Shown piece after piece: positions 1,252 to 14,014 of a stretch of 14,949 nt of DNA. The stretch spans positions 1 through 14,949 of the forward strand of contig JAESSU010000089.1 in NCBI GenBank assembly GCA_016763955.1, given 5' to 3'. Source of the DNA: Phycisphaeraceae bacterium (GTDB lineage: Bacteria; Planctomycetota; Phycisphaerae; Phycisphaerales; Phycisphaeraceae). Each line of letters opens with the position of its first letter. Position 1 is the stretch's first letter. The notes beneath the pieces are model-generated. The model saw only the letters and a list, made by a program, of their open reading frames with translations. It did not search any database and was not told where the DNA came from. The position numbers and the translations under genes are program-made.

Positions 1252-1665
1252 TCAGGCCGTGAACGTGTCACGAGTAAACGGAACTGCCATCGACCAGCCC
1301 AGAAACGGAGCATCGGCAATTTGAGTTTGCACATAAGGGATGCGGCATTTCACCGATCCGATTTCAGCATTGATGAAAATGCCTTTGAACCTGTCGGCTA
1401 TTTCGCGAATGCGGTTTGAACCCTGCCCTCCAGGTACACGAATGCGTGCGATAATCAGGCCTACGTTCCGCTCGCCGTTATTGCCGGGGTCTCCAAAGCT
1501 GATTTGCTCTGCACCACCACTTGCGATTTCCAGTTCAATACTCTCGCCACCAACGGGCGGTGTGAATTTGTGGGCGTCGAACCCAATGACCATATCTGGA
1601 AATTCAGCTTCACACCGTGCTTTGAAAAACGCCTCAATATCAGCGCGTTCGGTGTCATAGCTCAT
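1252..1665 (-). CDS. Tail terminator protein, DUF4128-like (137 aa)
   Basis: This is a small protein expected to cap the finished tail tube and provide the surface that docks onto the head. The start MSYDTERADIEAFFKARCEA, the central stretch around IIARIRVPGGQGSNRIREIA (residues about 70-90) and the C-terminal segment with aromatic residues and FTRDTFTA match the DUF4128 'tail terminator-like' pattern as I know it. The start is backed by a GGGAG ribosome-binding site 6 nt upstream. That site lies just after an intrinsic terminator (1682-1706), so expression depends on read-through or on a promoter near the terminator. It opens the tail module and is separated from the head-neck genes by the antirepressor/nuclease insertion. 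Confidence 0.82.
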   Translation of the reverse strand: MSYDTERADIEAFFKARCEAEFPDMVIGFDAHKFTPPVGGESIELEIASGGAEQISFGDPGNNGERNVGLIIARIRVPGGQGSNRIREIADRFKGIFINAEIGSVKCRIPYVQTQIADAPFLGWSMAVPFTRDTFTA

Positions 1666-1681
1666 GGCAGACTCCCAAACG

Positions 1682-1706
1682 AAAAAAGCCCCGCGAATGG
1701 CGAGGC
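1682..1706 (-). terminator. Intrinsic terminator just before the tail terminator gene
   Basis: On the minus strand a 7-bp GC-rich stem (GCCTCGC pairing with GCGGGGC, one G-T pair) closes a 5-nt loop and is followed directly by six T residues. It lies 20 nt downstream of the 46-bp repeated element and only about 16 nt upstream of the tail terminator start codon. A terminator in a 5' leader rather than behind a gene suggests attenuation or antitermination control. Confidence 0.75.
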
Positions 1707-1726
1707 TGCAAATTGACGAATTTCAG

Positions 1727-1772
1727 TGATTGTATCCCGTAAGGGTACGCGGTTTGCGCGAAGTGCGCAAGT
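1727..1772 (-). repeat. 46-bp two-dyad element, tail-module copy
   Basis: This is the first copy of an element repeated in the same orientation at 13363-13408; 44 of 46 positions match. On the minus strand it carries one perfect 6-bp inverted repeat (TTGCGC, 5-nt loop, GCGCAA; plus coordinates 1754-1770) and a second hairpin GTACCC / GGG-A-TAC with a single bulged A (1732-1748). Both differences between copies fall in the 4-nt loop of the second hairpin, so structure is kept. A terminator follows after 20 nt. It may be an RNA antitermination site, an operator, or both. Confidence 0.85.
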
Positions 1773-1797
1773 ATCAAATAGAAAAACTGAATTACAA
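1770..1797 (-). promoter_or_regulatory. Weak promoter candidate at the 46-bp element, tail copy
   Basis: On the minus strand TTGTAA and GATACT are spaced by 16 nt in an AT-rich stretch immediately before the repeated element. If used, transcription would begin inside the first dyad of the element, placing that dyad at the start point as an operator would be. The match to consensus is only partial (four of six at the -10), so this is tentative. Confidence 0.25.
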
Positions 1798-2105
1798 TTG
1801 TTAAACTTCAGAATCATTGAAGAGGACGTTGGTTCGCCCCCTTCAATTTCCATACTCAATAATTTTTGGGTTCATACGGTGGATCGTCGACGCGTTTTTA
1901 ATCTCCTCAATGATCGAAGAACAACGTGAGGAATTGAGGAAAAAACTGACTAAACAGCAGCAAGGGCTTTCCGAGTAAGGATTGCGCGATATTATTCATC
2001 CCTGAGAATGGCGGCGGTGCTGGGGTGCGGTTGAAGTCATCCAAGTGAAGAACTCAAAGGGCAATGCCAAGGAATCATATCCGAAAAATTTGACGTGTAG
2101 CGACA
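1773..2105. other. 333-bp stretch with no convincing gene
   Basis: I find no credible complete gene between the DUF4041/T5orf172 gene and the 46-bp element. On the plus strand there are short, broken protein-like pieces: a 22-codon frame from the ATG at 1910 (MIEEQREELRKKLTKQQQ), then pieces in other frames including PENGGGAGVRLKSSK around 2005-2050 and a Lys/Ser-rich piece that ends inside the nuclease gene. This could be the remains of a plus-strand gene broken by stops and frame changes, or chance. I do not recognise the family. The end next to 1772 holds the weak promoter candidate. Confidence 0.35.
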
Positions 2106-3488
2106 TCAAATCTCTGAAGAAAACTGTCCAGCAATTGAATTAGTTTCACCAACTTTATTCGCTTCACTAATTATAGAACCTTCATACTCCATTGAAGGAG
2201 CATTAAATTGAAACGGCGTACCTGGTATCCGAGTTTCCAATTCTTTTTGAACATCAGATAACGGAACATTGAAAAACTCTTTTCGACGGTTGAGGCGGTT
2301 CACTCTGAAATCGTCAAATCGTGCGTGAAGTTCTTTTTCCAAACGTGGGACATCCTCTGAAAACACCATTGCATGGATATCAAATGGAAACGGCACACTT
2401 GCATCCCCAAGTTCTTTGACGCGATCCAGCGGTTCTAATCTGCGTGTCATGCCAATTTTTATCATACGCTCGCCAAATGCGCCGCGATTGCTGATTACAT
2501 AGAGGTGGCCAATTTTTGTGTGCTCAGCCATAGAAAGCAATCTACCTTTGGACATCGAAGCCGCCGCAAGCTCACTTTCAAGCTCATTGACTTCGGCCTC
2601 CAGTGCGGCGCGATGTTCTTGGCTGGCTATTTTTAATCTTGCTTTCACCTCATCGAGTGCAGCTTGTTTAGCGGCTTCAAGTTTTTCACTTCGTTTAATT
2701 TCTGCCAGTATTTCTCGTTGAGCTTTCGCTTCTTCTCGTTCGGCTTCACGTACCGCGCGCAACTGATCTTTTTCCTGTTCCTTTTTGATTTTTTCCTCGT
2801 TCACCAAATCCGCTTCTTTAAATTTTAGCTGTAGATACTCATCTGTAATTTCAACATGCAAACTCTCATTCAGCTTATCTAGCGAGTCCCTAGAGGCCTC
2901 GATGCGGTCTTTTACTTGATTAATATTCCGCCAGTTAATTTTACCAATTCGTGAATCACATTCGTTGTTAAACGCCCGAAGTGTCAGCCGAACCGCTCTA
3001 CCCACCATTTTTCGGCCCTCAGACTTACTATCGCCCACAGTCCAATCTGTATGACCAACAACCGCGTTCTTTGAGCGAACAGCTTCTTTTTGTTCTTCTT
3101 TGACCGACTTAATCGCAAAAACATATTCTGCATGATCTTCGAGTTGAAACTTTGGTTCTTGAAAGCCTTTTTCCGTCAAACTGTATGCATCTTCTAATGG
3201 TCGCAATGCGTCTTCTAGTTCCTGTAATTTCTCATGCTTTGCCTTGTAGTCAGATTTGACATCATCCACATCGTCACGAAGACCCAAAAGATTGGCCTTC
3301 AGAAGATCGAATGCTTTTCGCATTTTTTTCCGCATAGATTTTTCTTCAGCTTCAATATCTACAATTCCTGAATACCGGACCAAGAGTCTTTTCAATTTTG
3401 ACCTATTCACAAAGTACAAAACCGAGAAAACCAAACTCGCAATCAGGTAAAAAACGATAACCAATGCGTATATGGACTCAGGTGACAT
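2106..3488 (-). CDS. Membrane-anchored DUF4041 + T5orf172 nuclease, SNIPE-like
   Basis: The protein is 460 aa from the ATG at 3488. The frame also has a GTG at 3527 adding 13 residues; neither start has a strong ribosome-binding site, and the ATG places the membrane segment right at the N-terminus. Order of parts: one transmembrane helix (residues about 6-28), a basic stretch, charged coiled coil (about 45-110), a DUF4041 region (about 145-245, with WTVGDSKSEG and LTLRAFNNECD), a long Glu/Lys/Ala coiled coil (to about 310), then a T5orf172 GIY-YIG-like nuclease domain (about 326-420). In the nuclease I see GHLYV and IKIGMTRR (the GIY/YIG-like pair), RVKELG, LEKELHARF and RRKEFF. This is the plan of SNIPE, an inner-membrane nuclease reported to cut phage DNA as it enters. 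A role in superinfection exclusion is inferred. The gene is visibly more A+T-rich than the structural genes. Confidence 0.85.
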   Translation of the reverse strand: MSPESIYALVIVFYLIASLVFSVLYFVNRSKLKRLLVRYSGIVDIEAEEKSMRKKMRKAFDLLKANLLGLRDDVDDVKSDYKAKHEKLQELEDALRPLEDAYSLTEKGFQEPKFQLEDHAEYVFAIKSVKEEQKEAVRSKNAVVGHTDWTVGDSKSEGRKMVGRAVRLTLRAFNNECDSRIGKINWRNINQVKDRIEASRDSLDKLNESLHVEITDEYLQLKFKEADLVNEEKIKKEQEKDQLRAVREAEREEAKAQREILAEIKRSEKLEAAKQAALDEVKARLKIASQEHRAALEAEVNELESELAAASMSKGRLLSMAEHTKIGHLYVISNRGAFGERMIKIGMTRRLEPLDRVKELGDASVPFPFDIHAMVFSEDVPRLEKELHARFDDFRVNRLNRRKEFFNVPLSDVQKELETRIPGTPFQFNAPSMEYEGSIISEANKVGETNSIAGQFSSEI

Positions 3489-3540
3489 GGTATACTTACT
3501 CGCAATTGGAATATGGAGTGGGTACACTGAAGTTAAAATT

Positions 3541-3567
3541 ACTGAATATCAATTGACATTATTCAGT
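3541..3567. promoter_or_regulatory. 27-bp dyad upstream of the SNIPE-like gene, operator candidate
   Basis: Perfect 8-bp arms ACTGAATA and TATTCAGT are separated by 11 bp, within which TCAATTGA is itself a palindrome. It lies about 53 nt upstream of the nuclease ATG in the AT-rich 148-nt gap after the antirepressor gene, where a cassette promoter would be expected. There is no T run, so it does not look like a terminator. Binding by a regulator, possibly the adjacent KilA-N protein, is a guess. Confidence 0.45.
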
Positions 3568-3636
3568 TTTCATAAACATTAATTACATTGACAACAGATT
3601 TCCGTTGCCGTTGGCTCGGCTTTTCCAGAGTGCAAC

Positions 3637-4467
3637 TCAAACCATCAATTGAGCGGTTTCCTGTAATTCCTTCACAATACCAGAACCCCATTTAAGCTGA
3701 CGAATTGCGGTTCCATCGCTGTGCTTCTTGCTGGTATCAAGATATACGCCGCCAGCCTTTTCCCCCTTGGCTGTCATTTCCCAGTGCTTATTACCCTTCA
3801 GGTCCCGAACCTGCTTTTGAAATCCATGACTTTCCAACAACTTATTGGCCGCTTGGGATGAATAATCACCTAGTCGACCACCAATTTCTGTTGGCGTAAT
3901 CAAACTTTCCTGCCGTGGCGCTACGAGGTGACTGGCTCCGATGATTTCCAATGGATCAACACCAGTAAGCCGGATAGCCAGCTTTTGACCTGACAGCACA
4001 GCCTGATTGCCTTTGAATCCGGCAATTGTCGCCATGCGTTTGCCTTCGTGGAAGATTTGGCGGATCTCGCGCATTTCAGCGCTTGGAGCCAGTGCATTAA
4101 GATTGCTTTCCTTCGTTCTGTTTGATCGGTAATCGAGGAAAGTCTGGTTTACGGACAACTGAAAAGACGGACTGATCCAGCCAGCGTAAGAAACGGCCAG
4201 CAATTCATGTACAAATGTACCACCATAACGACCAGGGGAACTGACAATAGGTTGCATAGGGGAATATTCCGTAATTAGAATTTCCGCCATGTCCTCAGTA
4301 GTTTGAAGGGCAAGCCATTCATTTGGCCGTACATCTTTTGTTACGCCTTTCGCAATTGCAGCGTTTGCAAGCGCATTTAAATTAAACCGCCCTTCACTGT
4401 CCGTGGTAATTTCCACGCCAGCGATTGTTGGCAAGGCAATTGAATTGGTGTTAGAAAATTTTGTCAT
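3637..4467 (-). CDS. KilA-N domain phage antirepressor (276 aa)
   Basis: The N-terminal part (residues about 20-115) is a KilA-N DNA-binding domain: GRFNLNALANAA, RPNEWLAL, and the hallmark GRYGGTFVHELLAVSYAGW followed by ISPSFQLSVNQTF. A short helical segment (about 130-175) leads to a C-terminal winged-helix-like domain (about 188-265: TPTEIGGRLGDYSSQAANKL, then HWEMTAKGEKAGG) of the kind found at the end of phage antirepressors. Such proteins bind DNA or the phage repressor and favour lytic growth. The ATG at 4467 is chosen over the upstream 4560 start because it has an AAAGGA site 8 nt upstream and overlaps a 20-codon leader frame as ATGA. It sits oddly between neck and tail genes. Whether it controls the prophage or only its own cassette is unknown. 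Confidence 0.85.
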   Translation of the reverse strand: MTKFSNTNSIALPTIAGVEITTDSEGRFNLNALANAAIAKGVTKDVRPNEWLALQTTEDMAEILITEYSPMQPIVSSPGRYGGTFVHELLAVSYAGWISPSFQLSVNQTFLDYRSNRTKESNLNALAPSAEMREIRQIFHEGKRMATIAGFKGNQAVLSGQKLAIRLTGVDPLEIIGASHLVAPRQESLITPTEIGGRLGDYSSQAANKLLESHGFQKQVRDLKGNKHWEMTAKGEKAGGVYLDTSKKHSDGTAIRQLKWGSGIVKELQETAQLMV

Positions 4468-4526
4468 TTGGAGTTTCCTTTGAGCTCTAGATGGGAGACC
4501 AGCGCGCGCAAACGCGACTGATCCAT
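4464..4526 (-). CDS. Possible 20-aa leader peptide coupled to the antirepressor
   Basis: The short frame reads MDQSRLRALVSHLELKGNSK and its stop overlaps the antirepressor start as ATGA. A GAGG ribosome-binding site lies 5 nt before its ATG, and that site is inside the 3' arm of the perfect 12-bp inverted repeat at 4531-4571. If translated, it could pass ribosomes to the antirepressor gene, with the hairpin gating access. It is short enough to be chance; the ribosome-binding site plus the ATGA overlap are the arguments for it. Confidence 0.4.
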   Translation of the reverse strand: MDQSRLRALVSHLELKGNSK

Positions 4527-4530
4527 TAGA

Positions 4531-4571
4531 ACCTCGGTGAAGCGGCGTCTCAAAACACACTTCACCGAGGT
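4531..4571 (-). promoter_or_regulatory. Perfect 12-bp inverted repeat in the antirepressor leader
   Basis: Arms ACCTCGGTGAAG (4531-4542) and CTTCACCGAGGT (4560-4571) are exact reverse complements with a 17-nt spacer. On the minus-strand RNA the downstream arm contains the GAGG site of the 20-codon leader frame, so folding would hide it. No T run follows, so it is not an ordinary terminator. It may also be a DNA-binding site. Confidence 0.65.
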
Positions 4572-4574
4572 GGT

Positions 4575-4594
4575 TTCACTGGCGAACCAGCAAA
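4575..4594 (-). promoter_or_regulatory. UUCG-tetraloop hairpin before the antirepressor leader
   Basis: On the minus strand an 8-bp stem (TTTGCTGG with CCAGTGAA, two G-T pairs) closes a TTCG loop, a very stable RNA tetraloop. It lies 3 nt upstream of the 12-bp inverted repeat, so two hairpins stand in tandem between the neck gene and the antirepressor. It could protect or process the message at the head/cassette junction. Confidence 0.4.
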
Positions 4595-4647
4595 CTTTTC
4601 AATTGTTCAGGATATTGCTTCGCCAAAAGAAGCCTACTTCGGTCCAA
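4576..4647 (-). CDS. Doubtful 23-codon frame between neck gene and antirepressor
   Basis: From a TTG at 4647 the frame reads (M)DRSRLLLAKQYPEQLKSLL and ends at 4576; it stays open about 20 nt further upstream without an ATG. The composition looks protein-like, and its start loosely resembles the next small frame (MDQSRL), but the ribosome-binding site is poor. It may be the remains of a gene broken when the antirepressor cassette inserted, or chance. No function is suggested. Confidence 0.2.
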   Translation of the reverse strand: MDRSRLLLAKQYPEQLKSLLVRQ

Positions 4648-4669
4648 TTTCCCGAGCGCTTCTTGATGA

Positions 4670-5050
4670 TCAAAACATCAACTCCAACTCAGCAAACGTC
4701 AGCCCCACCATTCCCGCTGTTGCCTGCTTAGACCACCCACCTTCAAGCCTTGGTCCATAGGGTAAATTGTTCTGTAAATAGATCGGCCTCAACTCAGATA
4801 CTGATTGAATAATTGCCGAACCGCGATTGATGGCGTCTTGTCCGGACTTATCCAACACGCCACTTGTTGCCAGTGTTGGTTGTCCAACCGTCACTGTCCA
4901 ATTACCCCGAAACCGCCCTGTATCGACAGGCGAGCGCAGTACCACACGGCTTAGTCCCTCCATCGCCAGCTTTTGCATAATCAGCAAAATCACCTCGTCA
5001 ATTTCATCTGCATACTGATCGAGTTCAATTCGAAACTGAGTTGCCAGCAT
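4670..5050 (-). CDS. Neck/tail-completion protein, HK97 gp10-like (126 aa)
   Basis: The pattern SPVDTGRFRGNWTVTVG (residues about 40-56), then LDKSGQDAINRGSAII, and IYLQNNLPYGPRLEGGWSKQ followed by AGMVG (about 90-116) is characteristic of the HK97 gp10-like family. These proteins act at the head-tail joint or in tail completion in siphoviruses. The ATG directly follows the stop of the head-closure gene with no gap, and that gene in turn directly follows the connector. It is the last recognisable head/neck gene before the antirepressor cassette. In most related phages the tail terminator would come next, so the cassette splits a normally continuous block. Full length for the family, no anomaly seen. 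Confidence 0.85.
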   Translation of the reverse strand: MLATQFRIELDQYADEIDEVILLIMQKLAMEGLSRVVLRSPVDTGRFRGNWTVTVGQPTLATSGVLDKSGQDAINRGSAIIQSVSELRPIYLQNNLPYGPRLEGGWSKQATAGMVGLTFAELELMF

Positions 5051-8344: not shown

Positions 8345-8560
8345 TCAGATAAGCACTGTTCCACAATCGGCACAGCGAATTTGTTTGGTGCCACCTTCCG
8401 GCTTACCATCCCGGATCATCCGGCCAAGCCTGACTTCAACGCTGGCGGCAGAACCGCATTTACAAATCAAAGGCTCCGACTGACCACGAACACGCTTTCG
8501 ATAAGGCTTGGGCTTACCGCCACCTTCGATCACTTTGAACTGATTTAGTTCTTCGCTCAT
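8345..8560 (-). CDS. Small zinc-ribbon protein (71 aa)
   Basis: The protein carries a likely zinc-binding pair, CKCG (C33, C35) and CADCG (C63, C66), separated by about 27 residues with basic and glycine-rich sequence between them, after a short N-terminal arm of Lys/Arg/Gly. Such ribbons bind nucleic acid or stabilise a small fold. The first Cys pair is C-x-C rather than C-x-x-C, which is unusual but tolerated. The start at 8560 is chosen because it overlaps the MuF stop as ATGA; an upstream TTG-type start is less likely. It sits between the MuF-like gene and a terminator. Function is unknown; a minor role in packaging or gene control is possible. Confidence 0.72.
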   Translation of the reverse strand: MSEELNQFKVIEGGGKPKPYRKRVRGQSEPLICKCGSAASVEVRLGRMIRDGKPEGGTKQIRCADCGTVLI

Positions 8561-9654
8561 AATCCGGCACGTTCCCAAGCTTTGGCTTCACGTTGTCTCA
8601 ATTGATCAAGAGTATAGGCTTTGCCGCTGCGATCCGTAAAGCGCTCAGGCGGAAGCTTACCGCCTCTGAATAATTTGCCTCGACCCTTTCCCAATACGCC
8701 ATTTTGAAATGACGCCGGTTTAGCGGCCAACCATTCGTAGTAGGTTGTCTTGGCCGGAACCTGCCCATCCAGTGAAGCCCGCGTCCCAGCGGGCGCTTCC
8801 TTCAGATTAATTCCCATTTCTTTCCAGCTTTTCAGCACAGGAAACGAACTTGAACGACATTGCCAATGAGCGCGCCCCGGCCCACTCAAATACGGCAATG
8901 AATGACCGATTGGCTTGCCAGCCAGGGTGTATTGCTTACCATCACGGTCCCGGCAAATTTGCGTCGTCCGACCGTCCAAAGTGGAAACCCAACTCAGCGC
9001 TTTTATTACCGCTGAATTCTCCTTGTAGGTTTCATCACGCGCTACGTTGGCAGTATGCGAGAGCGCAGTTCGCACAACCTTAATTGCGGATTTTCGATTG
9101 ATTTCGGTAATCCCGTCCCGGTAACCAGCCGATCTGGTTCCAACAATTCGCCTGACTATCCGATCTGTGGTTTCGCCCTCAACATATCCCATTCGAATAG
9201 CATTTCTAACCCGGCCGAACGCCGCCTGCTCCATTCCGGCAAACACTTCTTTTAGTAATGCACCTTGAAATGGCCTCGCCATCGCAGCGGCGTATAATGT
9301 GGCTGAGCTGGGAACAACCATGTTCGTTACGACTGGCGCCACGGTTGTAATCGCCCTGACCTGAAATTCAGCGGCATACAATCCTAACGCGCGAACCTCG
9401 CCGTTCAGTTCGCTTTTGATTGCTCGGTACGCATTTGCATTTATGGTTCGAATTGTGTCCAGCATAGCCTTCAGACGATCTGCGCTGTAGCCAGTTTTTA
9501 ACGCTGCATCATTCTTACGAATTTGATCAACCAAGTCAGCATCAACGCGATTAAGAAGCGCTATGATTTTGCGCTGAACATGCAGGCTGTATCGCTCAAG
9601 ACCTATTGCATGTGCAATATTTGCATCTAACAGCGCCTCATTGGCAGTCGGCAC
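8557..9654 (-). CDS. MuF-like minor head protein (365 aa)
   Basis: MuF-type proteins join the portal/capsid during head assembly and in some phages are carried into the host. The N-terminal two thirds are helical. The family signature is at the C-terminal side: RTALSHTANVARDETYKENS (residues about 195-214), then LSWVSTLDGRTTQICRDRDG (220-239), and HWQCRSSSFP (263-272). The order portal, small gene, MuF, scaffold, capsid is standard. Translation starts at a GTG whose first G is the last base of the upstream TAG stop (TAGTG), giving one-base coupling. After the MuF domain there are about 90 residues ending in a basic Arg/Lys-rich tail; I see no toxin domain there. Confidence 0.88.
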   Translation of the reverse strand: MPTANEALLDANIAHAIGLERYSLHVQRKIIALLNRVDADLVDQIRKNDAALKTGYSADRLKAMLDTIRTINANAYRAIKSELNGEVRALGLYAAEFQVRAITTVAPVVTNMVVPSSATLYAAAMARPFQGALLKEVFAGMEQAAFGRVRNAIRMGYVEGETTDRIVRRIVGTRSAGYRDGITEINRKSAIKVVRTALSHTANVARDETYKENSAVIKALSWVSTLDGRTTQICRDRDGKQYTLAGKPIGHSLPYLSGPGRAHWQCRSSSFPVLKSWKEMGINLKEAPAGTRASLDGQVPAKTTYYEWLAAKPASFQNGVLGKGRGKLFRGGKLPPERFTDRSGKAYTLDQLRQREAKAWERAGL

Positions 9655-9941
9655 TAAACCTCCTCGTACTTCCGTTTGAACTTCGTGGCGGACATCGCGC
9701 TCAACCTACCGGATGCGGCTCGAACCAATAGCTGGGACGGCCGAGCATTTATCACAGCCCCACCCGCCGTAATTTGATAAACACCGTTGTTGTCATTTTG
9801 CGTCCATGTGAGGCCACCAACAGCATGGCCCATTGCAAACAATTGGGCGCGGAACTCTGAATGAGACGTTTCAATCACCCCAAAGTCTGGATGACAGAGT
9901 TCTGGAATTGCCAACGGAACCTGCATAGCGAGTACACTCAT
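9654..9941 (-). CDS. Small hypothetical protein between portal and MuF (95 aa)
   Basis: The protein starts MSVLAMQVPLAIPELCHPDF, has a beta-prone middle (GGLTWTQNDNNGVYQITAGG, about residues 42-61) and a basic, helical C-terminus ending KFKRKYEEV. It has no signal or membrane segment. The start overlaps the portal stop as ATGA and the stop overlaps the MuF GTG start by one base, so translation of all three is coupled. I do not recognise the family. Small genes in this slot often encode virion-associated or portal-related proteins, but nothing here shows which. Confidence 0.7.
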   Translation of the reverse strand: MSVLAMQVPLAIPELCHPDFGVIETSHSEFRAQLFAMGHAVGGLTWTQNDNNGVYQITAGGAVINARPSQLLVRAASGRLSAMSATKFKRKYEEV

Positions 9942-11275
9942 TGCGCTTCTCCGATTAGAGGCGGCTCTTGATCAAGCGCACCCTCGTACTCTTCAAACGT
10001 TAATTCTGGTCGGATAATTCCACCCTGCTGCAGCTTTAAGAACATGTCTTCTTTGGGCAGGGCTGCCGATTGCCAAGAGTTAACCAGCGAATTTATACCA
10101 TTGGGGTCGAGCGAATGATCGGCCCAATCCGTATGGGGCCTAACGACAACTTCGTCAGGATTGGCGCCAAGCCAAACCGCCAGATTTTTCAAAGCTTTTT
10201 CCAGCCCTGATGCAGCCGTTTTTGCGATGATTTTTAGCGTCGCCGTTTCGGAAACAAACCGCGTTTTTAAAGCCTCGCCCGATTCTGCCGAGTTATTGGT
10301 AGATTCAAATAATTTCGCCCCAAGTTGAACGGCTTCCAATCGTTTGTCTGTCATAGCCTGACGTTGCGCCCCGGCTCCGGCTCCGGCGAATTCAAGATAA
10401 CCAGCCTGCGCATTTTGAGGCAGCACCCAAACGCCAGCACCAACAACTTTTGGTGCGTCATCAGGAGAAATCCCGCTTATCCATGCCTGCGGCTGTGAAG
10501 TTTGAAACAGTGTTTTTCGGTAATCGGCACTCAATTGATACAGAGCAATTGCACATCGCGCCAAACCATACAGTGGTACTTCGTCAGGTTCCGGTGTCAG
10601 GTCGTTCGTATCGATAAATACAAATGGCAGAAAATCCAGTGGTCGGTTGCCTTTCTTCGAAAGTGGAACCAGTTCAGATTCATCACCATCTGAACGCCCC
10701 GCGATACTGCCGATAAGTGAATACATCGCAACACCGTCAACAATGGATAATTCGCGACAAGCACCGTGTTCGCCCCATACATTGTCATCACTTCGACGTT
10801 GTTCTGTTTCATTGAGTGACACCAACGACAGATTTTCATCCGCATCGACATCCCAATTCATTACGGCTTCTGCAACGTATCCGGAAAGGATCGGGTTACC
10901 TTCACTATCCAAGTCCGAGAGCAATCCAAAGCGGCCGGCAATCAACACCTCGCGGATAATGCGCCGGTACAATCCGTTTAGTGTGACACCGGATTTAGTC
11001 GCTTTTTCGCGCAACCCTTCCAAGGCTTTTGGCAATTCAATCGCCAGGTCTTGTTCAGTCATTAATCCAACCATTCCGCGAATAGTTGATGCGACTATAT
11101 CTGGAAACTCTGCACGCTTTTTGTAAGCTGTAAACGCAGGGTCGCTCATGCCGTCCGGCTTTGGAAGGTATTCATCCCCTCGCTCTTTAACCTGATCTTC
11201 CCCCTCGACCACATCACGCATAACCCGCCAACGATCAGTAAAATCCGAATAGAGCGGATGTTTAGCAATATCCAT
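9938..11275 (-). CDS. Portal protein, DUF4055-like (445 aa)
   Basis: The portal is the ring at one capsid vertex through which DNA enters during packaging and leaves at infection. The N-terminal region has RWRVMRDVVEGEDQVKERGD, EYLPKPDGMSDPAFTAYKKR and FPDIVASTIRGMVGLM (to about residue 73), the DUF4055 portal pattern. The middle has FGLLSDLDSEGNPILSGYVA and mixed strands, and the C-terminal helical region includes ALKTRFVSETATLKIIAKTA (about 340-360). The length fits portals. It follows the large terminase with a TAATG one-base overlap, as expected for the packaging motor and its docking ring. Confidence 0.88.
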   Translation of the reverse strand: MDIAKHPLYSDFTDRWRVMRDVVEGEDQVKERGDEYLPKPDGMSDPAFTAYKKRAEFPDIVASTIRGMVGLMTEQDLAIELPKALEGLREKATKSGVTLNGLYRRIIREVLIAGRFGLLSDLDSEGNPILSGYVAEAVMNWDVDADENLSLVSLNETEQRRSDDNVWGEHGACRELSIVDGVAMYSLIGSIAGRSDGDESELVPLSKKGNRPLDFLPFVFIDTNDLTPEPDEVPLYGLARCAIALYQLSADYRKTLFQTSQPQAWISGISPDDAPKVVGAGVWVLPQNAQAGYLEFAGAGAGAQRQAMTDKRLEAVQLGAKLFESTNNSAESGEALKTRFVSETATLKIIAKTAASGLEKALKNLAVWLGANPDEVVVRPHTDWADHSLDPNGINSLVNSWQSAALPKEDMFLKLQQGGIIRPELTFEEYEGALDQEPPLIGEAQ

Positions 11276-12666
11276 TAATACAATCCGCCTATCTGTGTTA
11301 TTTGTGCGCGCGGTACGGTTGCACGCGGTGCATTTGCCATGATGAAAGCATCTGCATTATTGGGCGATGGAATATCCCGTTTCGCCAAATCTTTTTTGCT
11401 TTCGACCTTTGCCTTCCCATGAGTATCAAAATCACGAAGCGGCGTGGCCAATTCATCAATCAAGGTTTCCAAATGCGCGCAATCGCTCGATAAGCTGATT
11501 AATTCAGCTTCATCAAACTTCATGTCCTTTGTCACAGCATTGAATGTGTTTTTAAATCGAATACCCACCTCCCACCAAGCCTGCGCTTTCACATTAGAAT
11601 AGAAATCGACATTCAAGGGTGAGTGGATGTCATCTGGATCAATGTGCCTGTCCTTATTCAAAACCTCACCACCGGCGTTGAATTTGAAGTATGGAATGCT
11701 GCAGTTCTTTTCTTCATTCAACGCTTTAAAGTGTGACCCGGCATAAGCCCCAATGCCTATGCTGTCGTAATCGATTTCTGCCCGGGCAATACGTGCAACC
11801 GCATGAACCCGACTTGCAGATTTCAACAATTCGTCTTCACGACCTTTCCACTCATCAACTCGTATCGCCGCTATTCCATGGACCATCACCAGTGAGTTTT
11901 TATCTTTCCCGCTGTCAGCAACATCAAATCCAACCCGTTTACGACCGGACAATCCAATGCCCAGCACTTTATGTGCATCGATGGCTGCATTGATCCATGA
12001 CCGTTTGATAATTGCCTGATCATCATCCTGAAGCGGCTCACCAAGATAGATGTGCCGGTACTCGTCTTCGTCTTCCGACTTTTTTGCCGCAATAACCTTC
12101 AGAATTGTCGATGATAGAAACGGATTTTCAGTATAATTTATCTTGCGCTTGATCGTGTCTGTCGGCGTATTCGTCACAAATTTACGGTAGACAAAATCAG
12201 TCACCAAACGCGGATTAAAAATTATCCAAAATTGCGAACCCTCTCCACGCAGTGTCGGTTCCAACACATCCCATTGGTGTTGGGTTAATCCCTGGGCTTC
12301 TTCAATCCAGCAAACATCTATTCCTTCGAGTGATTTGATCTCGTCAATATGCCGCCAAAGGCCATAGAACAGAAACTCCGACCCGGTTCGGCGATGAGTG
12401 ATCGAATTGTCGAGAATCTTAAACTCATCTTCCAACCCAAATCGTTTGATCTGAATTTTCAGCAACGTGTATACGCTTTCAGCAATCTTGTTTTGAAATT
12501 GCCGAGCACACAAAAAACGCACTTTGTAATTCGACGCCAGAAATACTGCGAAGCCTGCTGCATCCCATGATTTGGATGATGACCTACCACCATACAAAAT
12601 CCTATTGCGCGCCGGTTTCCTCCAAAAACCCCGAAGAGCAGGATTGAGCGTCGGCGTTGAGGTCAT
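11275..12666 (-). CDS. terL: Terminase large subunit, PBSX/Sf6-type (463 aa)
   Basis: This is the packaging motor: it uses ATP to drive DNA into the head and cuts concatemers with a nuclease domain. The ATPase has a Walker A-like GGRSSSKSW (residues 26-34) and a Walker B with catalytic acid in VCWIEEA (118-124); a coupling-type segment is FWIIFNP (146-152). The RNase-H-fold nuclease shows the expected acids: D248 in GFDVAD, D301 in IDYDSIG, and D439 in NNADAFI. The ends look intact and the length fits Terminase_3/PBSX proteins (about 420-480). It is ATGA-coupled to the small subunit. Sequence type alone does not tell whether packaging is headful or site-specific. Confidence 0.95.
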
Positions 12667-13157
12667 TTAACAGATGAATAAAAATCATTCAGTGTTCGCG
12701 TTTCAATCGGTCCACCATCTTTGCCGGTCAACTCATTCTTATCCGAAAGCCCTAAATCACGAGCAATAATATTGGCGTTTAACATTTCGGCGGCGGCACC
12801 TGTGAATTTCTGCTGATAGATAATTGCCTCAACTCGCGCTAGGACGTCAGATAAATCGGATCGTGATTTGCGCCACTCGCTCCATGTTTCCATGCTGATA
12901 TCAAGAAATATGCATAAGCCAGCCAATGTCATAGCTCGCATTTTTCTTACATTAACGTGAGTAGCCACCCCTTGAAATGAGATTATTCTATCCTCGTAAA
13001 GTGGGTTTTTTTCGACCCACTCGAAATATTCGTGGCAAGCCATCAAGAGGTCGTCGGGGTTCTCAAACTTTGGCTTTGCGCCATGCGAGCTACGAGTTTC
13101 CCAAAACCGGTTACCCTTTACGAATTTTCCGGTTTGCTCGTCTTTGCCTTCCATCAT
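12663..13157 (-). CDS. terS: Terminase small subunit, Gp3-like DNA-packaging protein (164 aa)
   Basis: The small subunit recognises the phage packaging site and feeds DNA to the large subunit. The pattern [16 protein letters not shown] (residues 38-52), [17 protein letters not shown] (72-88), [27 protein letters not shown] (112-131) and [12 protein letters not shown] fits the Gp3-type terminase small subunit family. Residues about 75-100 form the likely helix-turn-helix, and 110-140 the oligomerisation helix. Two ATGs stand in tandem; the first has AAAGG 5 nt upstream and overlaps the stop of the 49-aa gene. The stop overlaps terL as ATGA. Packaging sites often lie in or near this gene, but I cannot point to one. 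Confidence 0.88.
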
Positions 13158-13303
13158 CCATACCTTTCAAACTGATCTGCCATATCTCTCAAGGCCCTGG
13201 CTGCTGCCTTTGATCCAAAATCAGTAGCGATTTGCGATGCTGCATTTTCGAGAAACAGCATATCGCGGTTATGTTTGTATTTTTGTATGCTGGCCTCTGA
13301 CAA
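13154..13303 (-). CDS. Small TTG-start protein just before terS (49 aa)
   Basis: The protein reads (M)[19 protein letters not shown] and then a helical, Ala/Arg-rich half ending FERYG. Support for the TTG start: a GAGG site 7 nt upstream, an in-frame stop a few codons before it, and no earlier start. The stop overlaps the terS ATG as ATGA, so its translation would be coupled to terminase. An internal ATG at residue 15 is a less likely alternative. It is the first gene after the 46-bp element and its terminator. The amphipathic, helical sequence could suit a small DNA- or protein-binding factor, but I recognise no family. Confidence 0.65.
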
Positions 13304-13317
13304 CGAAAAACCTCAAT

Positions 13318-13345
13318 AAAAAACCCCACCGTTTCTGGCAGGGTT
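13318..13345 (-). terminator. Intrinsic terminator ahead of the packaging genes
   Basis: On the minus strand a 9-bp stem (AACCCTGCC with GGTGGGGTT, two G-T pairs) closes a 6-nt loop and runs into six T residues. It lies 17 nt after the 46-bp element and 14 nt before the TTG-start gene. It may end transcripts coming from the upstream early genes and also act as an attenuator that must be read through for late expression. Confidence 0.78.
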
Positions 13346-13362
13346 AAAAACACACATCTTTA

Positions 13363-13408
13363 TGATTGTATCCCGCTAGGGTACGCGGTTTGCGCGAAGT
13401 GCGCAAGT
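13363..13408 (-). repeat. 46-bp two-dyad element, packaging-module copy
   Basis: This is the second copy of the element at 1727-1772, in the same orientation and 11.6 kb away, differing at two bases. First dyad: TTGCGC / GCGCAA at 13390-13406. Second: the bulged hairpin at 13368-13384, whose loop (13375-13378) holds both differences. One difference would put a stop codon into the only frame that is open across the first copy, so conservation is not for coding. It starts 17 bp after the stop of the HTH gene and precedes a terminator by 17 nt. Confidence 0.85.
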
Positions 13409-13411
13409 CCA

Positions 13412-13441
13412 TATAAATCTAAATTTAAGCTGCCACTTCAA
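13412..13441 (-). promoter_or_regulatory. Weak promoter candidate at the 46-bp element, packaging copy
   Basis: On the minus strand TTGAAG and TTTATA are 18 nt apart, in the AT-rich end of the HTH gene just before the repeated element. As in the other copy, the predicted start would fall at the edge of the first dyad. Matches are partial; alternatives such as TATATG for the -10 exist. Confidence 0.25.
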
Positions 13442-13985
13442 ACAATTCCCGATACTCTTCACGCAATCCCACCGCAATGTGTTCCAATTGGCGTGAACGA
13501 ATATCATAAACCGTTCGCTTGTCGCATCGGGCCTCACGTGCAATAGCCGCCACCCTTTGCCCCTGACACAGGCGGCAAATCACTTTCCAGTCACGTGGTT
13601 TATTCCGCCCCTTTAAATATCGATGCCAGCCCGTATGAAGGTCAAATATCAGTTCCATCCGTGCAATGGCTTTTGGGCTTGGCGGTGGCGTTCGGATTGT
13701 AATTCGCGATGGGTCTTCTCCCATTTTCAACCGGTCTAATTCGGCAATGTAAGCATCAAGCTTGTCTACATGGTCATGCGCGATTTCCGGCCAACAGGAC
13801 CGCTGTGAGTACAGCCATCCAGCCTCACGGTCCGGCAAACGGGGCAACGTCTCCATGGCGCCCTGAATAGCAAACCAAACCGCGTCTCCGGGCTTGGGCT
13901 CACCACCCATTTCCAAAATCCTGGCCTTTTCATATCCAATTTCAATACACTCACGCACACGGTCGGCTGTTATAAAGTCGCTCAT
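13425..13985 (-). CDS. DUF6362-like helix-turn-helix protein (186 aa)
   Basis: The N-terminal part contains AVWFAIQGAMETLPRLPDRE (residues 35-54) and SCWPEIAHD; the middle has TPPPSPKAIARMELIFD (99-115), and the C-terminal third is a helix-turn-helix-like segment, RVAAIAREARCDKRTVYDIR (144-163). This arrangement resembles DUF6362 proteins found next to terminase genes in prophages. The HTH suggests DNA binding. By position it parallels late-gene activators of other phages that sit directly upstream of the terminase, and the next thing downstream is the 46-bp element with a dyad suited to an HTH dimer. A late-regulator role is therefore attractive but inferred. AAAGG lies 8 nt before the ATG. 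Alternative: a terminase-associated DNA-binding protein. Confidence 0.7.
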   Translation of the reverse strand: MSDFITADRVRECIEIGYEKARILEMGGEPKPGDAVWFAIQGAMETLPRLPDREAGWLYSQRSCWPEIAHDHVDKLDAYIAELDRLKMGEDPSRITIRTPPPSPKAIARMELIFDLHTGWHRYLKGRNKPRDWKVICRLCQGQRVAAIAREARCDKRTVYDIRSRQLEHIAVGLREEYRELFEVAA

Positions 13986-14014
13986 TGCGAAGCCTTTATT
14001 TTCTGATGGTGATA

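Follow-up and report, generated by a model that had tools for sequence, protein, structure and literature searches.

Two copies of a 46-bp element at the heads of the packaging and tail genes of a Phycisphaeraceae-associated phage: proposed loading promoters for a DUF6362-related antiterminator

Published accounts of the antiterminators Q, AlpA and GafZ describe a binding element between the -35 and -10 hexamers with a terminator downstream (PMC6606751, PMC9371919, PMC11150451), and for Q and AlpA additionally a -10-like pause element within the first transcribed bases (PMC6606751, PMC9371919). Here we analyze a locus of related layout in a 14,949-base stretch of DNA (the window), which is the complete contig JAESSU010000089.1 from the metagenome-assembled genome (MAG; 3.58 Mb, 78.5% complete) of a Phycisphaeraceae bacterium and represents a phage fragment. 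A 46-bp element is found on the minus strand in front of the packaging module (copy A, 13363-13408) and again in front of the tail module (copy B, 1727-1772). We consider it probable that the two copies are DNA loading promoters for one Q-like antiterminator, with putative start sites, pausing, protein binding and antitermination all assigned from the sequence.

The two copies are identical at 44/46 positions (96%) and lie in the same orientation, so that the duplication described in the original prediction for this DNA is confirmed both by a repeat search and by self-BLAST (E 1.8e-12). Allowing up to 3 mismatches, the MAG contains 2 copies, both on the phage contig (the counts cover the contig and the MAG, the remaining phage genome being outside the window), while a looser core at the same tolerance gives these 2 copies together with 4 sites at 3 mismatches, against 3 sites for a reversed-pattern control. 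A dispersed host repeat, the refuting outcome that the prediction had itself named, is rejected, since only 2 copies exist across the MAG and both are in the phage contig.

On the minus strand an intrinsic terminator and then a gene start lie downstream of each copy, as had also been predicted. Both leaders contain a consensus hairpin and T run, positioned at 13318-13345 in the packaging-module leader (stem 13345-13322, T run 13323-13318) and at 1682-1707 in the tail-module leader (stem 1707-1687, T run 1687-1682), and the two predicted terminators differ from each other. The distance from T run to start codon is only 14 nt on the copy A side and 16 nt on the copy B side, leaving little room for a promoter behind either terminator. 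A transcript starting in or before the block must pass the terminator.

Considered as DNA, the block contains TTGCGC followed after 17 nt by TACCCT, while TACAAT begins 13 nt downstream of the first base of TACCCT. Conservation sets in 2 nt ahead of the TTG hexamer and ends 2 nt past TACAAT, the latter limit fitting a promoter core, so that on our reading most of the block would lie upstream of the transcript. TTGCGC, the proposed -35, forms the left arm of a dyad (dyad 1, TTGCGC-ACTTC-GCGCAA, 13390-13406 in copy A and 1754-1770 in copy B, minus strand). The inner GCGC-n5-GCGC of this dyad, which overlaps the -35 as well as the spacer leading to the -10, is the candidate antiterminator-binding element. 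TACCCT (13378-13383 and 1742-1747, minus strand) is the proposed -10, and TACAAT (13365-13370 and 1729-1734, minus strand) is proposed to act as a -10-like sigma-dependent pause element, the rival assignment being that it is the -10 itself. Within the window the TTGCGC/TACCCT/TACAAT pattern is confined to the two copies, and it occurs in 6 of 100,000 random 46-mers, a figure that serves as a guide only as the thresholds are post hoc. With a putative start 7 nt after TACCCT (~13371 and ~1735), the leader to the end of the T run would measure ~54 nt at both copies.

In the mechanism that we favor, each block would function as a minus-strand late promoter core at which RNA polymerase starts and then undergoes a sigma-dependent pause over TACAAT in the first transcribed bases, while an antiterminator of the phage itself, most plausibly the helix-turn-helix protein related to DUF6362 whose gene lies immediately upstream of copy A, would load at the GCGC-n5-GCGC dyad. 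Without this protein the polymerase would stop at the intrinsic terminator ~50 nt downstream, whereas with it a termination-resistant polymerase would transcribe the packaging module (from copy A) or the tail module (from copy B).

The proposed arrangement resembles that of lambda and phage 21 Q at pR', where a -10-like pause element, a leader terminator and late genes beyond it accompany a binding element placed between -35 and -10 (PMC6606751). It differs from these in having two putative loading promoters and a weak, GC-rich candidate -10. In the lambda record pR' reads TTGACT-17-TAAATT-12-AACGAT (hexamers assigned by eye), of which we take AACGAT to be the pause element. As in lambda the candidate regulator gene is directly upstream of the proposed late promoter, whereas the terminator is ~50 nt after the proposed start in the window and ~190 nt after it in lambda (read from sequence). 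AlpA of Pseudomonas aeruginosa offers a parallel to the duplication, in that one antiterminator acts at two promoters, each followed by intrinsic terminators (PMC9371919, PMC7969949), a precedent for one protein at two sites (PMC7969949). Its binding element likewise lies between -35 and -10, with a -10-like element at -1 to +5, but the binding element is GGGACG rather than a dyad, and AlpA targets host lysis and other host genes instead of the packaging and tail genes of a phage. Finally GafZ of the Caulobacter gene transfer agent, to which the window protein is likened by description, is a sigma-like helix-turn-helix antiterminator associated with a GC-rich near-palindrome between the -35 and -10 of the promoter that drives phage-like packaging genes; unlike the proposed system it works together with GafY and IHF, acts at a single site and has its terminator after the first gene (PMC11150451).

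The gene of the proposed antiterminator (13425-13985, minus strand, 186 aa) ends with a stop codon 16 nt before copy A and encodes a protein related to PF19889 (DUF6362) and PHROG 6836, families without an annotated function. Its score against PF19889 (29.0 bits) is under the curated cutoff of 31, yet the profile-profile comparison of the window family with the DUF6362 set from IMG/VR gives 97.7% (hhalign, E 2.2e-12), so by sequence we class it as a DUF6362 relative and not a member. Weak Pfam matches below cutoff place a helix-turn-helix at the C-terminus, and DNA binding is a prediction. Close relatives in a large protein database number three, P0001 (91%), P0002 (48%) and one partial sequence, and P0002 is over the PF19889 cutoff (33.1 bits). 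P0001 and P0004 (90%) are encoded on sibling contigs. The protein P0003 (113 aa, from an ENA contig) contains an exact copy of approximately the last 23% of the window regulator (13425-13556) joined to a different N-terminus, reflecting either a domain swap or an assembly join. A single-sequence search with the regulator confirmed no relative in IMG/VR and found none in phage records, while within the class of the host it matched 4 of 397 genomes, the MAG itself included. PF19889 matches 29 of these 397 genomes, in 1 case over the cutoff, and several of the matching translations resembled extracytoplasmic function (ECF) sigma factors by eye. The predicted fold of the DUF6362 family resembles Q21 and sigma region 4, although not decisively; AlpA and lambda Q chains are absent among the matches listed in the fold comparison, which is no evidence against them, and Q chains gave no match when compared with the regulator profiles. 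An AlphaFold2 (AF2) model of the window protein built from 3 sequences was too poor and was not used. A literature search by family name, which did not extend to the PHROG number, found no mention of DUF6362.

The same arrangement of gene, promoter-like core and terminator recurs in other phages that encode DUF6362-type proteins. A scan of IMG/VR with distant relatives as query identified 44 loci (L140-L183). Grouping these by the 130 bases that follow the stop codon gave 27 clusters, and the representatives of 19/27 clusters match PF19889 at E <=0.01. A 57-nt promoter-like core follows the stop codon and aligns without internal gaps in 26/27 representatives (five of them lack its first 6-8 columns, where the stop codon intervenes), and the alignment reveals two TA-rich hexamer-like motifs ~10 nt apart. 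In the 27th representative (L151, 8480-8912) the core is found at +377 (E 5.8e-7), making this the only one with extra sequence between gene and core. Strong terminators, defined by a hairpin stem score of at least 19 and TTT within 300 nt, are present in 32 of the 44 loci compared with 12 of 436 other open reading frames (ORFs) from these loci and with 17 of 880 shuffles, and the enrichment is retained when one locus is taken per cluster (18/27 versus 7/271 control ORFs). This longer-stem criterion was chosen after a shorter-stem one that gave 24/44 versus 52/452 and 69/440, with poorer separation from the shuffles. The first ORF of at least 380 aa within 5.5 kb downstream matches terminase large subunit ATPase families in 24/25 representatives (2/27 have no such ORF within that distance in the available DNA). 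These comprise 13 TerL_ATPase and 11 GpA_ATPase terminases, taken as different proteins, while the window terminase is of the Terminase_3 type. Because the terminase types differ, the constant feature is the position at the head of packaging rather than the neighboring genes, and the window relative occupies the same place upstream of the terminase genes. The order of the DUF6362 loci (regulator, promoter, terminator, late genes) is that of Q systems. Together with the anatomy of the block, this comparison supports the earlier suggestion that the packaging and tail modules share a late-control signal of lambda (Q) type.

Several observations limit the parallel. The 57-nt core profile from the DUF6362 loci does not match the window element, and the promoter hexamers of the window are consequently assigned from their spacing and their presence in two copies alone. 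The window terminators are also shorter than those of the DUF6362 loci and would fail the longer-stem threshold. The DUF6362 phages further differ from the window in having one promoter core only within the covered DNA, no second copy being seen in flanks of at most 8 kb, where the best other match has E 0.16. At L124 (Alsobacter) no terminase was recognized by eye in 8500-14000, and in L044, which shares terS, a simple scan found no strong terminator hairpin before terS.

The two copies might instead be activator-dependent late promoters, with TACAAT as the -10 and dyad 1 (at ~-40) as a class II activator site that replaces the -35. Mu C and RinA are late activators of this kind, and the activator could be the same helix-turn-helix protein, in which case the terminators would be weak or act as attenuators. 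TACAAT matches the consensus at 5/6 positions and is found at the very end of the block (373 of 20,000 random 46-mers have such a hexamer within their last 12 nt), the 17-bp dyad lies 19 nt upstream of it, and the regulator gene adjoins. We nevertheless regard an activator as unlikely, because it leaves unexplained the terminators in both leaders as well as the order of regulator, promoter-like core and terminator in the DUF6362 phages. The terminators are similarly unexplained if the block is an operator at which a repressor silences both late modules during lysogeny. While a duplicated 17-bp dyad at the module heads is suited to this role, and the adjacent helix-turn-helix protein could itself repress, no typical repressor family was matched among the scanned proteins and no copy of the element is found elsewhere in the MAG (the rest of the phage genome lies outside the window); we give repression little credence. 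The operator alternative in the original prediction came nearer the mark than its comparison with RNA elements (below). A neutral origin without any regulatory function, either by recent micro-duplication or as the trailing end of a mobile cassette, would account for the position of copy B at the end of a 3-kb cassette, and the 44/46 identity could reflect recency. However the similar spacing of both copies to differing terminators and gene starts is unexpected from blind insertion, making this origin rather improbable.

The prediction had likened the element to the put sites of HK022, in which case both hairpins would form in the nascent transcript and modify RNA polymerase. Common to the two are a two-hairpin element near a terminator and the presence of two copies per phage, but put elements are ~70 nt in length with two long stem-loops and lie downstream of early promoters (PMC9378689), whereas the stems in the window are 6 bp and the element differs in length and in placement. 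Predicted minus-strand folds are stable in both copies (z -3.0 and -3.2), with the terminators coming next, and promoter-like sites are present ~210 nt upstream of copy A (13645-13616, 9 of 12 positions) and ~1 kb upstream of copy B (2849-2822), although such sites number 13 in the window versus 17.6 in shuffles and are thus no more frequent than expected by chance. A perfect dyad with arms of at least 6 and a loop of 3-8 is found in 4.2% of random 46-mers and so is not rare as such. The RNA of copy B prefers the two-hairpin form (-14.3 vs -12.1 kcal/mol), but that of copy A prefers an alternative CCGC/GCGG stem (-16.0 vs -14.3 kcal/mol), a difference of 1.7 kcal/mol by which the second, bulged-A hairpin is lost. 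The two base differences between the copies do fall in the loop of the second hairpin as originally described, but they are not neutral, as they change the preferred fold. Since copy A favors a fold lacking the bulged-A hairpin, the comparison argues against a conserved two-hairpin RNA, albeit from two sequences only. The flanks of the element are without conservation, and among known RNA families none scores above its gathering score. Given these differences, and with most of the block upstream of the transcript on our reading, a put-like antiterminator RNA is very unlikely, and a DNA loading promoter of Q/GafZ type is the more likely mechanism.

The position of copy B suggests how a second loading promoter might have become useful. 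In the window the Neck1/tail completion gene (4670-5050, minus strand, profile matches), the last head-side gene, is separated from the tail terminator gene (1252-1665, minus strand, PHROG 179, ATG at 1665), the first gene 3' of copy B, by a 3-kb cassette (1666-4669). The cassette at this neck/tail junction encodes a KilA-N protein (3637-4560, minus strand, profile matches) and a DUF4041/T5orf172 protein (2106-3527, minus strand, profile match), and copy B with its terminator is positioned at the downstream end. Acinetobacter phage Bhz20, to which the comparison was confined, has the order Ad1, Hc1, Neck1, tail terminator and tube, with Neck1 and tail terminator overlapping, while the window has Ad1, a gene in the Hc1 position (placed by order) and then Neck1. 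Copy B is most simply explained as a second loading promoter by which the tail module is restarted, or gated on its own, downstream of the cassette, suggesting that copying the loading promoter may be a way to keep the tail genes on after a cassette breaks the late operon. Within the stretches covered, the duplication of the element looks special to the window phage. It is possible, and we propose only tentatively, that DUF6362-type proteins are an undescribed Q21-like antiterminator family and that the late region of the window phage has been split into two terminator-gated operons with starts of their own, one for packaging and one for the tail, through a second loading promoter for the one antiterminator at the end of the inserted cassette. 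This proposal gives a testable function to a Pfam/PHROG family that heads the packaging genes of many phages, and may add a further lineage beside the known loading antiterminators (Q types, AlpA and GafZ).

Searches for the element elsewhere were largely negative. Exact core patterns had no match in IMG/VR or in a genome contig collection, and a search near related terminases in 84 sources, with as many as 14 substitutions allowed, recovered no copy beyond the window itself and pieces of it. The BLASTN comparison with phage genomes that the prediction had called for matched, with the copy B region, the terminator stretch only, and the copy A region had no match among plasmids. A self-repeat scan of intergenic DNA covered 82 sources, the window among them, and 3 loci gave other short repeats, none of them this element, and a stricter scan with the window left out reported no repeat. 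Upstream of related terminases, L018 contains a perfect 34-nt intergenic direct repeat (1148-1181 and 1861-1894), and repeats in L031 (2759-3041) resemble two tRNA genes when read by eye.

Along the minus strand the window encodes regulator-side genes, terS, terL, head and neck genes, the two-gene cassette, the tail terminator and the tail tube. A 49-aa ORF (13154-13303, TTG start at 13303) lies between terminator A and the terminase small subunit gene terS (12663-13157, PF16677), its stop overlapping the terS start codon. The large subunit gene (11275-12666, PF04466, Terminase_3) comes after terS, and the tail tube gene is at 283-1221 (PF18906), all on the minus strand. A tail-tube scan of IMG/VR returned zero relatives, the phage collection held no near match to the whole window, and in a search of 101 genomes terS matched the MAG and no other. 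The MAG contains no 16S gene. The GC content of the contig (0.48) is near that of four other MAG pieces (0.48-0.51), by which mis-binning is neither shown nor excluded. The 46-bp element was not found in L035, a 4,160-base IMG/VR contig in which the terminase match starts at the contig edge. This contig encodes terminase residues 133-463 at 100% identity (35-1027), and by its sequence is the same or a very near phage from another metagenome.
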